Origin: Halolamina sp. CBA1230
Lineage (GTDB): Archaea > Halobacteriota > Halobacteria > Halobacteriales > Haloferacaceae
Reading direction: 5' to 3'
Length of the DNA stretch: 64,000 nucleotides
Assembly: GCF_002025255.2 (NCBI RefSeq)
Contig: NZ_CP054588.1
Span: 62,001 to 126,000 of the forward strand
Under the pieces are notes generated by a model. That model made no database searches, was not told the origin of the DNA, and saw only the letters and a program-made list of their open reading frames with translations. Positions 22,658-31,697 of this stretch are shown here, in pieces; the stretch's first letter is position 1; every line of letters starts with the position of its first letter. The translations under genes were made by a program, and so were the position numbers.

Positions 22658-25600
22658 ATGACTAACCGGACGGTCCTCGTCGGTCCCAATCACCACGCGC
22701 TTGAGGCGGCTGCATTTGATCGCGGGCGGTCGCTCGCTAACGAGGGGATCAATCGTGTGCTCTACGTGTCGGAAGAATCCACCCGGCACGACCGGGTCGA
22801 AACCCATTGGCGTGAGGCTGGCGACTCACTCAGACTCCGGACTGCAACCCTAATGGGGCTCGTATTCGACTGTTATGAACAGTTGGAGGGGCCAACGACG
22901 CGCCTTCCTGAAGAGACTGATCGCCGAGCGCTGGAATTCAGTCTTGACGACATCCTCTCAGACCACTCTTGGTTATCCACCCAACCACATGTCTCGGCGT
23001 CATTGGTCGATGCGTTTAATCGCCGATTCGCACGGTTTCAGAACGTCGGCCTAACGACCCCTGAGCGTCTTGCTGCGGAGTTCTCCGACTCCTCCCTCTC
23101 AGATCGGATCCGTGAAACAACCCTTGCTGCCTATAGAGCGTACGACCGATACCGTGACCGGTTCTCTGACGCATGGCACGTTACCGACGAGGAAGTGTTT
23201 GGAACGGTCACTGACCAGGATCTCACCGAGCTGCTCCCACATGTCGACGTCGTCATCGTCGATGGATTCATCGATCCAACCGAGCTCGAACGGCAAATGC
23301 TCGAAGCGCTGGCAACATCGTTCTCGACGATCGCAATCCTGCCAACCTTTTCGCAGTCAGGCACTGCCGGAGTCGACGCGGCGACCACGGCGGTTCGAGA
23401 GTTGTATACCGAGCTGGGGTTCGAAGAAGAACGAATCCACGAGCCTGAAGATCGCTCGCCGCTCCAGCAGGTTGCCACGACACTCTATCGGGCAGAACCG
23501 CCCGAGACTCAGACAGTTCCGGAGGCACTCGAGTGGCGTGAACTCCCGACACCAGAACGTGAAATCCGATATGTCGCTCGGGACATCCGGACTATCCTCG
23601 CATCGGGGATCGATCCCTCACAGATCGGTGTCGTCATCCCGGGGCTCCAAGCCTACGACGAATATGTCGAAGACACCTTCCACACCTATGACCTGGCCTA
23701 CTCGGTTGATTCGGACGCGGCACTGATGGACACCCACGTTGGAAGCGCAGTCGAGAACCTCCTCACACTCGCCGAGGCAGCGCCACGGGCTGATGCAGTG
23801 ACTGAACTCGTGACGAACCCTGTTGTGGATCTCCTTGATGATGGGGGCGAAGATGCTGTCCTCACGGCTCATCGGCGGAGTGATGCGATCCGGGTTGAGT
23901 CGATGCTGCAATATCTCCCCAGTGCAGTCACCTCGACGCTTCAGTCGCTACTCGAGACACTCACACCGCTTCGTGAGGCAGATACCCGGGTGGCAGACGG
24001 CTGTGAGATACTCCAAACGGCCGTTGCCGATCTTCATATCTCGGCGGCACTGGACGCCGATGAATCACGAGTCAATACTGCTCGCGAACAGGCAGCATTT
24101 GACCAGGTCGACGAGCTCCTCTCCTCGTTTGATGCCGCTGATCCGGAGCATCCGGATCTCGCACCATCCGCCGCACTCAACCGTGCCCTCCGGGGGGCAA
24201 CACTCCAGGGCTACTCAAGCAGTTCGAACGATATTGCCGTCCTTGACCATATCGATGCAGCGAATCATGCGTTCGATCATCTCTACATCGTTGGACTCAC
24301 AGGGGAACACTTCCCGAAGATCACCCGGCATCCAGCGTTTTTCGAACGCATGGTTGAGGCGCACCCGATCCTCGACGTGCTCGACACTCGGATCCGCGAC
24401 CGATATCTCTTCGCGACGGTGCTCGCGAACGCCGAGGCAGTAACCCTCACCACGCCATCAACGGACCCCGAATCGACGGCTGTGGTCCGCTCGCCGATCC
24501 TTGATGAACTCAATCGGACGACGGGTATTGAGCCAACAATTGGGACCGACAGCCGAATCGGCTCACGTGAGGATCTCCAACGGGCGATCGCCCCTCTCGA
24601 CAACCGACAGGAAGCCGTCAATGCCGCCGGTGAGCGGGGAGATTTCACGGCGAGTCAAACGATCCGGGCCGATCGGGGCATCGCATGTGCAACCGAACGT
24701 GCAAGTCCCGATCTCTCCCCCAGGGATGGACTTCTCGACCCCGAGACGGTCGCCGATCTGTACCCACGGGAAACTCGGGAACCGTATAGCGCGAGCCGCG
24801 TCGAACGCTACGTCAACTGTGGGTTCCAGTTCTATATGGAGAACATTCTGGAGCTCGAGGATCCGGCGGATATCGATCGAACGCCGGATCCGCTTGAGGC
24901 AGGGACCTTGATCCACGACACCCTCGAACGGTTCTTTGCCGAGCTTCAATCGGAACCGGGTGAGCCTGTCGACATCAGTGAGATCGACCAGTCGGAGCTG
25001 GAAGCCCACATGCTTTCAGTCGCCCGTTCGGAGCTGGCGGCGGCATCATTTGAGTACGACGGGCTGTTCTATCGTCGGTGGCTGGAACAGCTCTTCGCTG
25101 GTCTCGGGGATCCTGCGGAGAATCCCTACGACAGTGATCCACGCCCACACGAGGGAACAGACAAGGGACTGTTCGTCCGGTTTATCGAACACGAACGACA
25201 GCGGGATGGTGGGACATACCCGGCCTGGTTCGAGGTCCCATTCGGGGACGAGCTGCATGACGGTGCTGCCGACCCGTTCGCGATTGACCTACCGAACGGG
25301 GACAGTGTCGAGTTCCATGGCTACATCGATCGGATCGACGTTGGCGTCGATGACGATGCACCAACGGTCCAACTGTTCGACTACAAAACAGGCAGCACCC
25401 CATCGATGACAACAACGACCGGTGGCACGACCTTCCAACTCCCACTGTATCTGCTTGCCGCAGAGCAGGTGGTAGACAGCGAGCTGACGGACATGACGGA
25501 TCTTGCTGCGACCTACTACAAGACGAAGCCTCCCAACGACATCTACCAACCGAGGGGTATCGAGTCGAAGTTTGACTCCTCCGCCGAGCTCCACCGATTC

Positions 25601-25852
25601 CTCACAGATGTGATCCCCCAGCGCCTCCAAACACTCACGACATCTATCGAGCAAGGACGCTTCCAAACGACATTACTCACGGCAAACGAAGCCAATTGTG
25701 AGTATTGTGATTACCGACGATCGTGTGACGTCAGACATCACCAGCGCCGGGAACGGGTAGCCCAACTCGAGGATGATTCGGAGACGTACGTCCCGATCCG
25801 GGCGACATCGACCGACTTTGCGTCGGTATTCTCGGGTGAGACCGATGACTGA
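22658..25852 (+). CDS. AddB-like nuclease/helicase subunit
   Basis: 1064 residues. The N-terminal part is helicase-like with a degenerate P-loop (LVGPNHHALEAAA). The C-terminal part is a RecB-family PD-(D/E)XK nuclease with an Fe-S cluster: YSASRVERYVNCGFQFYM (~710-727, first Cys), LEAGTLIHDTLERFF (~745), VQLFDYKTGS (~903-912, D and K of the active site), QLPLYLLAAEQ, and CEYCDYRRSC (~1013-1022, three more Cys). This is the AddB arrangement. It overlaps the AddA-like helicase gene by 8 nt. Together they would resect DNA ends for recombination or degrade foreign DNA, but the partner is truncated, so function is doubtful. Confidence 0.85.
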   Translation: MTNRTVLVGPNHHALEAAAFDRGRSLANEGINRVLYVSEESTRHDRVETHWREAGDSLRLRTATLMGLVFDCYEQLEGPTTRLPEETDRRALEFSLDDILSDHSWLSTQPHVSASLVDAFNRRFARFQNVGLTTPERLAAEFSDSSLSDRIRETTLAAYRAYDRYRDRFSDAWHVTDEEVFGTVTDQDLTELLPHVDVVIVDGFIDPTELERQMLEALATSFSTIAILPTFSQSGTAGVDAATTAVRELYTELGFEEERIHEPEDRSPLQQVATTLYRAEPPETQTVPEALEWRELPTPEREIRYVARDIRTILASGIDPSQIGVVIPGLQAYDEYVEDTFHTYDLAYSVDSDAALMDTHVGSAVENLLTLAEAAPRADAVTELVTNPVVDLLDDGGEDAVLTAHRRSDAIRVESMLQYLPSAVTSTLQSLLETLTPLREADTRVADGCEILQTAVADLHISAALDADESRVNTAREQAAFDQVDELLSSFDAADPEHPDLAPSAALNRALRGATLQGYSSSSNDIAVLDHIDAANHAFDHLYIVGLTGEHFPKITRHPAFFERMVEAHPILDVLDTRIRDRYLFATVLANAEAVTLTTPSTDPESTAVVRSPILDELNRTTGIEPTIGTDSRIGSREDLQRAIAPLDNRQEAVNAAGERGDFTASQTIRADRGIACATERASPDLSPRDGLLDPETVADLYPRETREPYSASRVERYVNCGFQFYMENILELEDPADIDRTPDPLEAGTLIHDTLERFFAELQSEPGEPVDISEIDQSELEAHMLSVARSELAAASFEYDGLFYRRWLEQLFAGLGDPAENPYDSDPRPHEGTDKGLFVRFIEHERQRDGGTYPAWFEVPFGDELHDGAADPFAIDLPNGDSVEFHGYIDRIDVGVDDDAPTVQLFDYKTGSTPSMTTTTGGTTFQLPLYLLAAEQVVDSELTDMTDLAATYYKTKPPNDIYQPRGIESKFDSSAELHRFLTDVIPQRLQTLTTSIEQGRFQTTLLTANEANCEYCDYRRSCDVRHHQRRERVAQLEDDSETYVPIRATSTDFASVFSGETDD

Positions 25853-27932
25853 GGATCGAGCAGGCACGCCAGGCGATGCGCCTGACGACGATGCCACGCC
25901 AGAAGCTATCCAACTCACTGACGAGCAGAAGGATGCACTCGTTCTCGATCGGAACGTGACGATCACTGCGGGGGCTGGCACGGGCAAGACGACGACACTG
26001 ACACAGCGATACCTCGAGTTCCTCCGTTCGAACCCGGAGGCGACGCCCGAGAACGTTATCACGATCACGTTCACGCGGAAGGCGGCAGCCGAACTCCAAC
26101 AACGGGTCCGCGAAGAGGTGTACGCTGAACTTGACGCAGCTGACTCGCCTGCAGAATATACGCGCTGGCGCGATGTTCTCGACGAAATTGACGATAGCTA
26201 CACGCACACGATCCATGCCTTCTGTGCGCGACTCCTCCGTGAGAATGCCGTCCAAGCGCCGATCCCCGTCGAGTTCGACGTATTAGATGAGAACGACGCT
26301 GCTGACCTTCAACGAGAGGTCGTTACCGACTATCTCGACACACACGAGACCGATCAAGCAGTCGATCTCTTGTCACGGCTCTTCGGGTCCCGCGGCAGAT
26401 TGACCGATATTCTCACAGAACTGTTGGCGGCCCGTCCAGAGAGTGAGGCGTGGCTTTCGGCCTGGGGCGATCGCGATGTCGACGACTATCTCGATTTCCT
26501 CTGGGAGAATGTGTGTACGCTCGATCCCGACCGAGCAGCAGAGTGCCTCCATTCAGCCCCAGTGCAAGACGCCTTCGAGACCGCCCAGCGATTTGCGGAA
26601 ACCGAGTTCGACGTCGATGACGGTGCCGATGGTGTGGTTGTCCTTCGTGAGATCGCGGCTGTCGCAGACCGAGTTCAGACGGCAGATGACGACCGGACCA
26701 TCCTTCGGCAATGTCGAGCAGTATACGATATTCTGGAGAAAAGCTCCGGGGGACTCTACGCCAGTGCCAGTCACCACCTCGTGGGCACAAAGGCGAGCTG
26801 GAACTCCGAGACTGAGGCGTACGACGATTGCAAAGCGGCGCTGGGATCGCTCATCGAGGAACTCCAGGCGATCGAAGAGCAACTACAGAGTGTCCCCGGC
26901 GATCTGGATCGGAACAGCGCACACTACGTGACTGCCTTCGCAACGGTCTTTGAGGATGTTCTTGCGGCGTATGAGGCTGAGAAAACCCACCGTGATGCAC
27001 TCGATTTCCCGGACTTGATCGAGACATCGATTACGTTCCTCGAGTCGACCCCGGAGGTTCGGGCGTCACTTCGGGAGCAGTTTGCTGCAGTAATGGTTGA
27101 TGAGTTCCAAGACACGGACGAACGCCAGTGGGAGCTTATCTCCCTGCTGACGGGGCTGGTTGATGACGACGATGCGACGGACTCCGTATTCCTCGTTGGG
27201 GACAAGAAACAGAGTATCTATGGCTTTCGTGGCGCTGAAGTAACGACGTTCGATACTGCTGCAGCCGAACTTGCTGCAGAGAACCAACGGCTCGGACGGG
27301 ACGCCATCCCAGACGGGACCCAGGCAACCCCGACAGGGATGGAACTGTCAGGGAATTTCCGGACTCTCGAGGGGCCCCTGACGTTCCTCAACGAACTGTT
27401 CGATCAGGTGTTCGAGCCGCTCGGCGATGAGTATGCCCCGTACGAAGCAACGCCCCAGCCGCTCTCGTTTGAGCGGGATCGAATCGAGGATGTGGGTGAG
27501 CTCTCCGGGTCCGTCGAGTATCTTCTCGTTCCGGAGGGGGAAGACGACGCGGCTGCGCTATTGGATCCTGCACACCCAGTCGTCGATGCAGCGGCCGAAC
27601 ATTCGATCGCTGGCGAGGCGCAGGCACTCGCTGATCGACTGTCGACCCTTCTGTTGGACCCACCGACAATCATTGATGAAGACACGGGCGAGCAGCGGCC
27701 CGCCGAGCCTGCAGACGTTGCGATCCTGCTTCGCCGTCGAACGCATCTGGATCGGTATCAAACGAATTTGGCAATACCGACCTCATCCACGACCTGGTCG
27801 AGAAGATCGCCTACCGAGATGGTGACGGCGATCTATTGGCGGAAGGTATCGACCGAATTCACGATGAGTTGGGAGTCGAGAACTGGTCCGTCAAAGGGAT
27901 GGACTTCGCGGCCCATGAGGGGAGGGTGCTAA
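25845..27932 (+). pseudogene. AddA/UvrD-family helicase, truncated at the C-terminus
   Basis: The start ATG 25845 overlaps the AddB end (ATGACTGA). Motif Ia/Walker A TAGAGTGKTTT (~41-51), ITFTRKAAAELQQRV (~70-84), motif II DEFQDTDERQWELI (~418), motif III VGDKKQSIYGFRGAE (~447) and AILLRRRTHLDRYQ (~627) are intact. Immediately after, at ~27764, the sequence switches to another gene: the remaining ~55 codons to the stop at 27932 are out-of-frame AOR sequence. About half of a normal AddA (helicase motifs IV-VI and the nuclease) is missing. Confidence 0.85.
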
Positions 27933-28390
27933 ATGGACAGGGGCTATCCTATGCCGTTGCAAACCGTGGTGCTGATCACATGTACGCGACCTTCTACTCT
28001 GTCGAGTACCCGCTCGTGCCCGATGAAGATGCACTAGACCCGAAGGGCACCCTTGGCAAGGCAGACGAACTTATCCACCGAGAGAACTTGATGGCTCTCA
28101 ACGACGCAGGAGTCGTCTGCAAATTCTCGCGAGACTACATGAGTCCCGAACGGTACGAAACGTTGTTCGACGCTGATTTCGAAGAGCTGCTTGCTGTTGG
28201 TGACCGCATTGTAACACTCGAGCGGCACTTCAATAACCAGCGTGGATTCGGTCGCGAAGAGGATACGCTCCCATACGAACTACCAAACTTCCAGCAGGCG
28301 CTGGATGAGTACTACGATGAACGTGGCTGGGAGGATGGCGTCGTATCCGACGCTGCTTTGCCCGAGGATTACGAACAAATCGAGGCTTGA
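27764..28390 (+). pseudogene. Aldehyde ferredoxin oxidoreductase, C-terminal fragment
   Basis: In the frame that begins inside the truncated AddA, the product reads EFGNTDLIHDLVEKIAYRDG, GIDRIHDELGVENWSVKGMDFAAHEGR, YAVANRGADHM, FYSVEYPLVP, LMALNDAGVVCKFSR, LERHFNNQRGFGREEDTLP and LDEYYDERGW. These are the C-terminal domains of tungsten/molybdopterin aldehyde ferredoxin oxidoreductases, including the GVVC cysteine region. The N-terminal cofactor and Fe-S domains are absent and there is no proper start (the nearest is TTG 27836). It is inactive. Confidence 0.85.
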
Positions 28391-28473
28391 GTCGCTTGTT
28401 CCGGGCGTCCGTAGGCTGAGTTTTTCAAGGGCGTCGATGGGTGACCCGGCTCGAAAAACGGGTCGATTCACCG

Positions 28474-28869
28474 ATGAGCTTGGAAGTCATCAACCGTCAT
28501 AGCGAGGCCGTGTTCGAGTTCCTCTGGTGTCCAGTCTGCGGACACGAGGTGTTCAGCCACATCCCTTTCGAGGGGGTGTTCTGTGAGAACTGTAACACGC
28601 AGGTCGAACTCCAAGAGGCGCGCGAGGATCGCGGCTACGAGGACGCCGTCCTCGCCTGCTTCGATACGCACACGACCTGGAACCTCCACGTCGACGAGAA
28701 ACTGCGCCGCGACCTGCCTGATGGGTCGGCGCGCGTGAAAATCTTCGGCGCACCGGGCGCCTACGAGGTCGACTGGTGGAGTCCGGAGCCAGGTGAGGAT
28801 TGGGAGCCTGTCGAGCGCGGCGAGTTCGACGACGTCGAGGAACCATCAGCGGTGTCGCACCTAGCGTAG
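28474..28869 (+). CDS. Zinc-ribbon haloarchaeal protein (DUF7567-like)
   Basis: 131 residues from ATG 28474 (an earlier start at 28441 adds eleven unconvincing codons). A zinc ribbon CPVCG...CENCNT occupies residues ~19-42, followed by an acidic beta-rich domain (TWNLHVDEKLRRDLPDGSAR; GAYEVDWWSPEPGEDWEPVERG). I recall this as a conserved haloarchaeal accessory family (DUF7567). Its role is unknown. It is typically found near ArdC-like genes, as here. Confidence 0.72.
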   Translation: MSLEVINRHSEAVFEFLWCPVCGHEVFSHIPFEGVFCENCNTQVELQEAREDRGYEDAVLACFDTHTTWNLHVDEKLRRDLPDGSARVKIFGAPGAYEVDWWSPEPGEDWEPVERGEFDDVEEPSAVSHLA

Positions 28870-28964: not shown

Positions 28965-30359
28965 ATGTCGGACCGACAATCGAAAGAGGAGGTCTGGGGT
29001 GAGTGGGTTCGGCGGACAATTCTCTCAGACATCCAGTCGGCTGCAACCCCGGATCCGGTGCCAATGGTCGACCACAGCGGCTCGGAATTATCGATGACCG
29101 ACGAGTACGATACGTATCGCCTGGGTCGGGGGAGTGGAGACTATCTGTATATGTTGTACCTCCTTGACGAACCCACAGACGGATCCTTCGATGTGATCCC
29201 GGTGTACATCGGCGAAACGAGCAATGTCGCGAGTCGACTGATGAACCACTTCAGAAAGCTCCGGGACGCCCTCCCCATTTCGGAGTGGGAAGATGATGGA
29301 TCATGGGGCAGTTACGGGAAGTACGACCACATCGCGACCGTCTACGAAAAATCGGCTTCAAAGCTGTACGCGTGGGTGGTCAACGTCGACGATCTGGAGG
29401 CGGGTCCGTACGGGTACCCGACGTACCGACACGAACTCGAGGGGAAGATGGTCGGTCTGGTTCACTCGCTTCCGCGGTTTGATCGCGTGTTCGCCAATCG
29501 CGACTTCGTCCCCAACCGTGTCCCCCACAAGATGGGGCAAGTGGGCCCCGAATGGGTTAACGACAAAAACAGATCATTCAATGAAGAATCAGCACATCTC
29601 GCTGAACTCCCCGTTGAGAAGGTGACTGCGGAGAATAAGCCCGAGCTGTGGTACGAGTGGGTTGAGAAAACCATCTGCCGAGACATCAACGACTCCGAGA
29701 AGACAGATCCGATACCGCTCTTCGAGACGGACGAAGACCTCGTTGTCGAGACAAAGTCGCTTGGCTCCTCGACGGTGCTCAAGCGAAGCGATGCCATTGA
29801 CGAACGGATTCGTCGAGAGGGAAAACGATGTGTTCACAGTAACGGCGTGAGAGAAGGAGAGAGCGGAGTACTCTACGTCCTGTTTCAACTCAACTCTGAG
29901 GACCCCTCCCCTACGGATGTTGTCCCACGGTACATCGGAAAAGGTGAGGCGTACGGGAAAAAGAACGAACTGAGTGCTAACTTCGAGGAGATAGCGAAAG
30001 GCCGGAGCGGGACACGGAGTTTCGCTCGTTGGGGCGACGGGAGTTATTGGCACATAGGTGAACTCTCGGAGACAGTATTCGGCGAGGAGTCGAAGAAACT
30101 CAGTTGGGCGAGCGAACTCTTCGAGCAGGGAACGCGCCAGCTCAAACAACAAACGTATCTGTGGATCCGCGCGTGGGACCCGGAAACGTATCCAGGGCCG
30201 TACGGCTATCCTGCGTACCTCGCAGAAGTTGAGCCGCTACTGGTCGGACTCGCATACGAGGCGTGGCCCGATTACCTACTCAATCACAACGAAGTCCCGG
30301 GTAACGCGCCGGCAAACAGCCGCGAGTTCGAATTTCGACCTGTCGAGGACGGTCACTGA
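28965..30359 (+). CDS. Protein of two tandem GIY-YIG-like nuclease domains
   Basis: 464 residues made of two similar halves. Half 1: WGEWVRRTILSDIQSA (~11), YLYMLYLLDEP then VYIGETSNVASRL (~60-90), YAWVVNVDDLEAGPYGYPTY. Half 2: WYEWVEKTICRDINDS (~229), VLYVLFQLNSE then RYIGKGEAYGKK (~302-326), YLWIRAWDPETYPGPYGYPAY. Each YMLYLL/VLYVLF ... YIG pair is the GIY-YIG core. The catalytic Arg appears in half 1 (SRLMNHFRKL) but is less clear in half 2. A promoter-like AT stretch precedes it. A nuclease for invading DNA or homing is inferred. The duplicated architecture is unfamiliar to me. Confidence 0.7.
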   Translation: MSDRQSKEEVWGEWVRRTILSDIQSAATPDPVPMVDHSGSELSMTDEYDTYRLGRGSGDYLYMLYLLDEPTDGSFDVIPVYIGETSNVASRLMNHFRKLRDALPISEWEDDGSWGSYGKYDHIATVYEKSASKLYAWVVNVDDLEAGPYGYPTYRHELEGKMVGLVHSLPRFDRVFANRDFVPNRVPHKMGQVGPEWVNDKNRSFNEESAHLAELPVEKVTAENKPELWYEWVEKTICRDINDSEKTDPIPLFETDEDLVVETKSLGSSTVLKRSDAIDERIRREGKRCVHSNGVREGESGVLYVLFQLNSEDPSPTDVVPRYIGKGEAYGKKNELSANFEEIAKGRSGTRSFARWGDGSYWHIGELSETVFGEESKKLSWASELFEQGTRQLKQQTYLWIRAWDPETYPGPYGYPAYLAEVEPLLVGLAYEAWPDYLLNHNEVPGNAPANSREFEFRPVEDGH

Positions 30360-30675: not shown

Positions 30676-30700
30676 GTTTTTAACGCCCCTGAGGGGTGCG
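30676..30700 (+). promoter_or_regulatory. Leader element: T-tract plus GCCCCTGAGGGGTGC hairpin
   Basis: TTTTTAACGCCCCTGAGGGGTGCG, 50 nt before the ArdC-like start. A near-identical layout (T-tract, CGCCC, GGGGCG) precedes the gene at 31785. It may be a terminator for the upstream fragment or a shared 5' control element. Confidence 0.4.
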
Positions 30701-30749
30701 GCGCGGTCTGAGCAGACGCAGTCGCCGTGACCTCGATTCGGTGACCACA

Positions 30750-31697
30750 ATGACTACGACCAGTGACGCGTCGGTCTCCTTCGACCAGACCGACACGCGA
30801 TCCGACGAGATGAACAGCACGATCGAACAGTGGATCGACGACCTCGTCGCTGGCGTCGACGACGCGCAGGCCAGCGCGGAGTTCCAAGAATGGCTCGATG
30901 TCCAGAGTCGGTTCCACGACTACTCCTATCGGAACACCCTCCTGATCAAGCAGCAGTGCCCCGAGGCGACCCGCGTGGCGGGCTACCGGACGTGGCAGGA
31001 GGAGTTCGACCGCCACGTTCAGGAGAGCGAGTCGGCCATCTGGATCTGGGCGCCGATCATCACCAAGCAGTGCCCGGAATGCGAGAACTCGCCGAGCTAC
31101 CACAAGGACAGTGACTGTGAGTACGACGAGACGCCACCCGAGGAGTGGTCCGAGGGCCTGGTCGGGTTCAAGCCCGCGCCGGTGTTCGATGTCTCCCAGA
31201 CCGAGGGCGAGCCGCTTCCCGACCTGGACACGGAAGCGACCGGCGACGCTGGCGATCTGGTTTCCCAACTGACTGCTGCCGCTGATGAGCTCGGCGTGAC
31301 GGTGCGAATCGTTTCAGAAGCGGAGTGGACCCACGGCGAGGCGAAGGGCATCTGCGAGCAGTTGAGCCTCATCGACATGCAACCGCTCGTCGAGGTGCGT
31401 GATCGGGAGAACGAGGCTGACCTTGCGCGGACGCTGATTCACGAGTACGCGCACGCCCTGCTCCACTTCGACGTCGACGACGACACCGAACGGTCGAAAC
31501 GCGAAGTGGAGGCCGAGGCGGTCGCGTACGTCGTCGGGCGGTACTGTGGGTTGGACACCAGCGGGTCGGCGTTCTACCTCGCTGCGTGGGAGTCGGACGA
31601 TCCCGAGATCGTTCGCGAGCGCCTCGGACGGATCAGTCGGACAGCAGAGGAACTCATCGACGTTCTCGAGAGCGAATCCTCGTCCCAACCCAGTTAA
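30750..31697 (+). CDS. ArdC-like ssDNA-binding protein with zinc-metallopeptidase domain
   Basis: 315 residues from ATG 30750. The N-terminal ~100 residues (WIDDLVAGVDDAQASAEFQE, YSYRNTLLIKQQCPEATRVAGYRTW) are the ArdC single-strand-DNA-binding domain. An inserted zinc-like CPECEN...DCEYD loop is at ~110-125. The C-terminal domain has HEYAHALLHF (~231), the HExxH zinc-peptidase motif, with REVEAEAVAYVVGRYCG supplying the third ligand Glu. ArdC-type proteins protect incoming plasmid DNA from restriction. The location beside type IIG and HsdR-like genes fits. A 66-nt fragment of a homologue survives at 45508. Confidence 0.85.
   Translation: MTTTSDASVSFDQTDTRSDEMNSTIEQWIDDLVAGVDDAQASAEFQEWLDVQSRFHDYSYRNTLLIKQQCPEATRVAGYRTWQEEFDRHVQESESAIWIWAPIITKQCPECENSPSYHKDSDCEYDETPPEEWSEGLVGFKPAPVFDVSQTEGEPLPDLDTEATGDAGDLVSQLTAAADELGVTVRIVSEAEWTHGEAKGICEQLSLIDMQPLVEVRDRENEADLARTLIHEYAHALLHFDVDDDTERSKREVEAEAVAYVVGRYCGLDTSGSAFYLAAWESDDPEIVRERLGRISRTAEELIDVLESESSSQPS

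Follow-up and report, generated by a model that had tools for sequence, protein, structure and literature searches.

A GIY-YIG-type protein of haloarchaeal plasmids built of two unequal domains, probably a fused two-subunit DNA-cutting enzyme

The window analysed here, a stretch of 64,000 nucleotides, lies on a 254-kb haloarchaeal extra contig of Halolamina sp. CBA1230, whose genome comprises 3.47 Mb in 4 contigs, and it encodes a 464-residue protein whose two halves resemble each other. The question raised by this locus is what kind of enzyme such a chain might form, and the protein itself, taken together with its relatives, points to a fused enzyme of two subunits that probably cuts DNA. The features on which the argument depends are the following.

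28965..30359, + strand: two-domain GIY-YIG-type protein, 464 aa, with an ATG start and no interruption
28983..29069, + strand: N-terminal extension of half 1 (W..WV..TI..DI .. TPDPVP), residues 7-35, recurring at the start of half 2
29136..29504, + strand: N-domain, canonical GIY-YIG core, residues 58-180, from AF2 secondary structure and a sub-threshold Pfam GIY-YIG match
29235..29249, + strand: R91-H95 codons, helix Arg (Y81 +10) and His (Y81 +14), invariant in 27/27 two-domain homologues, with counterparts in 3/3 Deinococcus N genes
29637..29729, + strand: N-terminal extension of half 2 (K..LW..WV..TI..DI .. DPIPLF), residues 225-255, from BLASTP and profile-profile comparison
29859..30299, + strand: C-domain, divergent GIY-YIG-like core, residues 299-445, from profile-profile comparison, the AF2 model and stand-alone homologues
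30021..30068, + strand: C-domain signature FARWGDGxYWHxGELS, residues 353-368, with R355 and H363, in 43/43 C-type domains
30231..30284, + strand: E423-N440 codons, equivalents of E159 and N178 according to the alignments

The two halves can be aligned over about the whole length of each by BLASTP (28% identity, E = 1e-15), their Smith-Waterman score is 171 against 34 +/- 5 for shuffled sequences (n = 500; Z = 25), and profile-profile comparison gives a probability of 99.4%, which bears out the sequence-only reading that the whole chain is an internal duplication. The recurring motifs that this reading had pointed out also lie at the places it claimed: VWGEWVRRTILSDI, at residues 10-23, is followed by LWYEWVEKTICRDI about 218 residues further on, LYMLY and VYIG of half 1 are paired with LYVLF and RYIG of half 2, and GPYGYPTY at 147-154 returns as GPYGYPAY about 264 residues further on, the offset growing from ~218 to ~264 because half 2 has extra residues.

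The N-domain is the more readily classified of the two. In the AF2 model it consists of strands 60-67 and 77-85, a first helix at 88-102 that carries R91 and H95, a helix at 118-129, a strand at 134-140 and a helix at 155-167 with E159, after which comes N178. Y65, Y81, R91, H95, E159 and N178 are invariant in 27 of the 27 two-domain homologues aligned to the query, at 48-91% identity, and the catalytic-type Arg already attributed to the first copy is R91 of this set. The corresponding residues of I-BmoI are Y6, Y17, R27, H31, E74 and N87 (PMC3161791), and the N-domain shows the Tyr-to-Arg and Arg-to-His spacing of I-TevI and I-BmoI (reference positions from PMC3161791), so that the complete GIY-YIG residue set, with two Tyr, Arg at +10, His at +14, Glu and Asn, is present. 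The Pfam PF01541 cut-off of 22.6 bits is missed by the full-length protein (14.2) and by half 1 (15.3); Pfam GIY-YIG matches at E up to 1 are found in 21 of the 27 homologues, all weak and the best at E = 0.0025, and the best sub-threshold NCBIfam match is the excinuclease Cho. The N-domain can be assigned to the GIY-YIG superfamily with good confidence.

The C-domain retains part of this residue set in a different arrangement. Its elements in the AF2 model are strands 301-309 and 319-328, a degraded helix 1 (341-344), an inserted helix at 363-371, a helix at 379-385, a strand at 398-403 and a helix at 419-433, followed by N440. The distribution of residues was followed in an alignment of 63 domains, 20 of them N-type (17 N-halves and 3 Deinococcus N genes) and 43 C-type (17 C-halves, 21 stand-alone proteins, 3 Deinococcus C genes and 2 longer proteins). 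Both types share a pair of Tyr, the YIG Gly, and the Glu and Asn, of which the last two are absent only in the frameshifted row of D. peraridilitoris. The helix-1 Arg and His occur in none of the 43 C-type domains, the C-halves having K333 and N339 there and nearly all C-type domains an Asn at the His position; R355, W356, G357 and H363 of the inserted ARWGxGxxxHxGxLS element occur in all 43, and the N-type domains lack R355 and H363 at the aligned positions. The Arg/His states of the two types (n = 20 and n = 43) are perfectly complementary in this alignment, in which a Y-A-R-W string of the Deinococcus N genes was placed with the following helix and might be placed otherwise, with no effect on the helix-1 Arg and His. 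The earlier view that the second copy is the more diverged needs refining, since half 2 has its own invariant residues and is under the stronger purifying selection (dN/dS 0.07-0.14 versus 0.14-0.24 for half 1, both purifying).

Besides the BLASTP similarity to half 1, homology of the C-domain to GIY-YIG proteins can be traced through the stand-alone C-type profile, which matches the N gene of a Deinococcus plasmid with E = 2e-8 at Z = 1000; as this gene also passes the Pfam GIY-YIG model, the C-type family is tied to GIY-YIG by transitivity. The C-half would be a diverged GIY-YIG homologue by virtue of its homology to half 1 and to the Deinococcus gene, and its fold is weakly supported. The full-length AF2 model (pLDDT 86.6, pTM 0.89) implies a defined packing of both halves, and in each of them strands and helices follow in the expected order, with helix 1 shortened in the C-half. 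The top PDB matches of the full AlphaFold model in Foldseek are the UvrC GIY-YIG structures 1yd5 and 1yd4, both weak (probability 0.57-0.75, E 0.17-0.24), and in BFVD a viral GIY-YIG_SF protein ranks second with probability 0.82. A model of a stand-alone C-type protein, built from haloarchaeal rows only (pLDDT 89), has no GIY-YIG structure among the 50 matches listed. The two-domain profile gave no sequence match to a solved structure, and those of the stand-alone profile and of the Deinococcus N protein were implausible only. The description of the chain as two full GIY-YIG-like repeats is not fully supported, since the UvrC matches of the full model are weak and the model of a stand-alone relative of half 2 retrieves no GIY-YIG structure among the matches listed.

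Two readings of the C-domain have to be weighed at this point. It may be a non-catalytic specificity or regulatory domain joined to an N-domain that alone is GIY-YIG-like, as the loss of the helix Arg and His and the result of the stand-alone fold search would suggest; nevertheless, E423, N440 and both Tyr are still conserved in C-type domains, and stand-alone C-type genes are widespread with no N-type partner adjoining, so that this reading is regarded as somewhat unlikely. Alternatively, both domains may be active, the phosphate-binding Arg and the His of the C-domain having moved from helix 1 to the inserted element (R355, H363), and the two non-equivalent sites would then make a double-strand break. 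The C-type domains do hold a full inventory of Tyr, Tyr, Arg, His, Glu and Asn, with Arg and His complementary to those of the N-type, the C-half is the more constrained half, and within the R.Hpy188I family one branch has been proposed to have a migrated Arg with a complementary distribution (PMC2630997); on the other hand, helix 1 is shortened in the predicted C-domain, the conserved R355 and H363 could equally bind DNA, and the Deinococcus N genes, having an ARW of their own, cannot be aligned with certainty around the inserted element. Two active sites seem, on these grounds, rather doubtful.

Bacteria, for which the search covered plasmid records, bear on the relationship between the halves. 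Three plasmids, from Deinococcus sp. QL22, Deinococcus sp. KNUC1210 and D. peraridilitoris, each carry an N-type gene of 163-165 codons that overlaps the adjacent C-type gene by 4 nt; the N-type gene of Deinococcus sp. QL22 lies above the Pfam GIY-YIG cut-off (25.2 versus 22.6 bits) and its two relatives below it. The haloarchaeal protein therefore resembles a heterodimer fused into one chain. In 2 of the 3 plasmids the annotation splits the C gene into two pieces, with breaks at different places (L086:7953-8581 and L088:6001-6622), for which decay, sequencing error or frameshifting are all possible. In the tree, the members of each half-group and of each Deinococcus group stay together, the stand-alone genes form two parts, and the branching order is weak; the AU test does not reject a grouping of the haloarchaeal N-halves with the Deinococcus N genes (p = 0.395). 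From the residue states we infer that the simplest account would be one change in an ancestor of the C-type domains and a later fusion in haloarchaea. A recent origin by internal duplication within haloarchaea, unrelated to the Deinococcus pair, would fit the best tree, where N-halves and C-halves are on the same side of a weak branch (support 30/93), but it would oblige the N-half to regain the canonical Arg and His and to lose R355 and H363, and both states exist as separate adjacent genes in Deinococcus; such an origin is considered improbable.

The fused form is not confined to the window. A match is found in 59 of the 391 genomes of the class, and a near-full-length two-domain protein in about 28 haloarchaeal genomes, in most of them plasmid-borne, while stand-alone proteins of ~215-270 aa that match the C-half alone occur in about as many genomes. 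Fourteen plasmid records contain a place that spans 80% or more of the query, and those with an annotation there mostly call it 'GIY-YIG nuclease family protein'. The architecture, of which the earlier reading knew no example, is not unique according to the taxonomic search; in the literature searched no description of such a chain was found, nor one of the tandem of canonical and rearranged GIY-YIG-type domains together with its unfused pair in another phylum and the recurrent DUF6884 neighbour discussed below. Two or three of the ~28 two-domain genes are disrupted by stops or an insertion (stops in L026 and L079; ~1.8 kb between the pieces in L012), which would fit an accessory gene prone to loss. 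A phage or viral origin was considered and set aside, with no match in phage records or in three viral-contig scans. Two longer proteins of 356 and 330 aa (L064:5521-6591 and L063:6106-7098) join an N-terminal extension to a C-type domain without the Lys after YIG, the former being encoded on a plasmid that also has a two-domain gene, ~3 kb away. Several stand-alone copies (L005, L045, L049, L052, L057) adjoin one same gene, whose product starts with a YDIERYLNIRSA-type sequence, and this shared neighbour suggests a stable position in some genera.

A recurrent neighbour of the family is a gene for a DUF6884 protein (PF21818), found within 1 kb of two-domain genes in 5 cases against 0.015 expected, and of stand-alone genes in 4 against 0.008 expected; these nine pairings are not nine independent events, because the genomes are related. 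In 7 of the 9 the DUF6884 gene is on the same strand and directly upstream, with gaps of -10 to 38 nt between matched stretches, and in D. peraridilitoris a DUF6884 gene is upstream of the N/C pair. The window copy has no such neighbour, the nearest DUF6884 gene of the Halolamina sp. CBA1230 genome being on another contig. Pfam's authors describe DUF6884, a DNA-binding family, as YaaA-like, and its member YfjM of B. subtilis is among the interactors of abasic and RNA-base lesions (PMC11701544). On plasmid NZ_CP127176.1 (L080:17645-18920) a different GIY-YIG protein, of 287 aa and scoring over the Pfam cut-off, is encoded by a gene that overlaps the DUF6884 gene immediately upstream of it, and this is a second pairing of the two families. 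In Salinigranum marinum (L089:3593-15377), a stand-alone C-type gene lies amid two TGT-like genes, QueC, QueE, FolE and a BREX-type ATPase, a neighbourhood reminiscent of 7-deazaguanine DNA modification clusters; a link to that modification, raised by the TGT, QueC and QueE genes, is not claimed from this single occurrence.

The surroundings of the window copy are of another kind, with the following genes identified, the first four upstream of the two-domain gene and the last downstream of it, together with unassigned ORFs.

22658-25852: PD-(D/E)XK protein (Pfam)
25773-27932: UvrD-type helicase ORF, 719 aa, which appears to stop early (Pfam)
27836-28390: aldehyde ferredoxin oxidoreductase fragment, a C-terminal remnant (Pfam AFOR_C)
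28441-28869: DUF7567 (Pfam)
30696-31697: ArdC-N/M78-like protein (weak Pfam matches)

The overlap of the shortened UvrD-type ORF with the AFOR_C remnant (25773-28390) looks like a recombination scar. Defence genes, for which the neighbourhood had seemed worth inspecting, were not apparent beside the window copy, where Pfam and PADLOC show no known one beyond generic UvrD-type helicase matches: the GajB and RTasHel models match this neighbour, as is expected for any UvrD helicase, and the two-domain protein itself has weak PDC-S14 matches only. According to Pfam, no methyltransferase is present among the ten neighbours (21.9-34.9 kb), and the cognate methyltransferase of a Type II restriction enzyme is accordingly missing from them. 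A comparison of this neighbourhood across homologues yielded no consistent gene set; the surroundings are an accessory-gene mosaic and do not fix the role of the protein.

Taken as a whole, the best explanation, held with moderate confidence, is that the two-domain protein is the single-chain form of a two-subunit GIY-YIG-type DNA nuclease with a specialised C-domain, and would probably incise DNA carrying damaged or modified bases. In the N-domain, which would be the canonical nuclease, the beta-hairpin would hold Tyr65 and Tyr81 and helix 1 Arg91 and His95, Glu159 would bind the metal, and Asn178 would complete the set. The C-domain, a specialised paralogue without the helix-1 Arg and His, would pack on the N-domain to give a DNA-binding pseudo-heterodimer, and may either position DNA for a nick by the N-domain or add a second, rearranged active site; the separate-subunit state would survive in the Deinococcus plasmids. 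Some members of the family would be cotranscribed with the gene of the DUF6884 protein, probably a sensor of abnormal bases, and it is on account of this cotranscription that incision of DNA with a damaged or modified base appears the likely job, in plasmid-borne repair or in modification-dependent restriction. Of all this, the duplication, the conserved residues with their complementary states, the separate adjacent genes and the DUF6884 linkage are observed, and catalysis, a physical heterodimer, the target and the role are inferred. The idea of a pseudo-dimeric nuclease, put forward in the sequence-only reading, is partly supported: it is strengthened by the Deinococcus plasmids that carry the halves as separate overlapping genes, while the fold matches of the full model to GIY-YIG are weak and a stand-alone C-type protein has none among the matches listed; the asymmetric target proposed along with it is a guess. 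The most specific version, a GIY-YIG endonuclease of two different subunits that are joined in one chain in haloarchaea and come from a pair of overlapping genes in Deinococcus, with one canonical site and another in which Arg and His have both moved to a different structural element, and forming with DUF6884 a lesion- or modification-directed incision system, is judged quite unlikely to hold in every part.

Among known enzymes, R.Eco29kI and R.Hpy188I share the residue set of the N-domain and act as homodimers whose monomers nick one strand each (PMC3161791), with one domain per chain, whereas the window protein has two non-identical domains and no adjoining methyltransferase. More generally, characterised GIY-YIG restriction enzymes are homodimers or tetramers, and the homing enzymes employ a single site in turn (PMC3161791, PMC4081073). 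The GIY-YIG domain of UvrC gives the top, weak fold matches and Cho the best sub-threshold NCBIfam match; they differ from this patchy accessory gene product in their UvrB-binding or C-terminal UvrC domains, which it lacks. The type IV enzyme CMoRE (PD-T4-3) likewise has an N-terminal GIY-YIG domain and then a second domain in one chain (PMC12923530), but that second domain is an unrelated modification sensor, while in the window protein the two domains are paralogous. Parallels in organisation only, from different families, are offered by BbvCI (Type IIT), with two subunits of one catalytic site each (PMC6326814), and by GmrSD, described as two proteins or one fused protein (PMC4619093). The two-domain protein is a variant of a known superfamily and not a one-off. 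A natural fusion of two unequal GIY-YIG domains, together with an unfused bacterial pair, would let the division of strands between domains be tested directly and would show whether a GIY-YIG site works with relocated Arg and His, and the recurrence of DUF6884 beside it suggests a role that can be tested for a family whose function is unknown.
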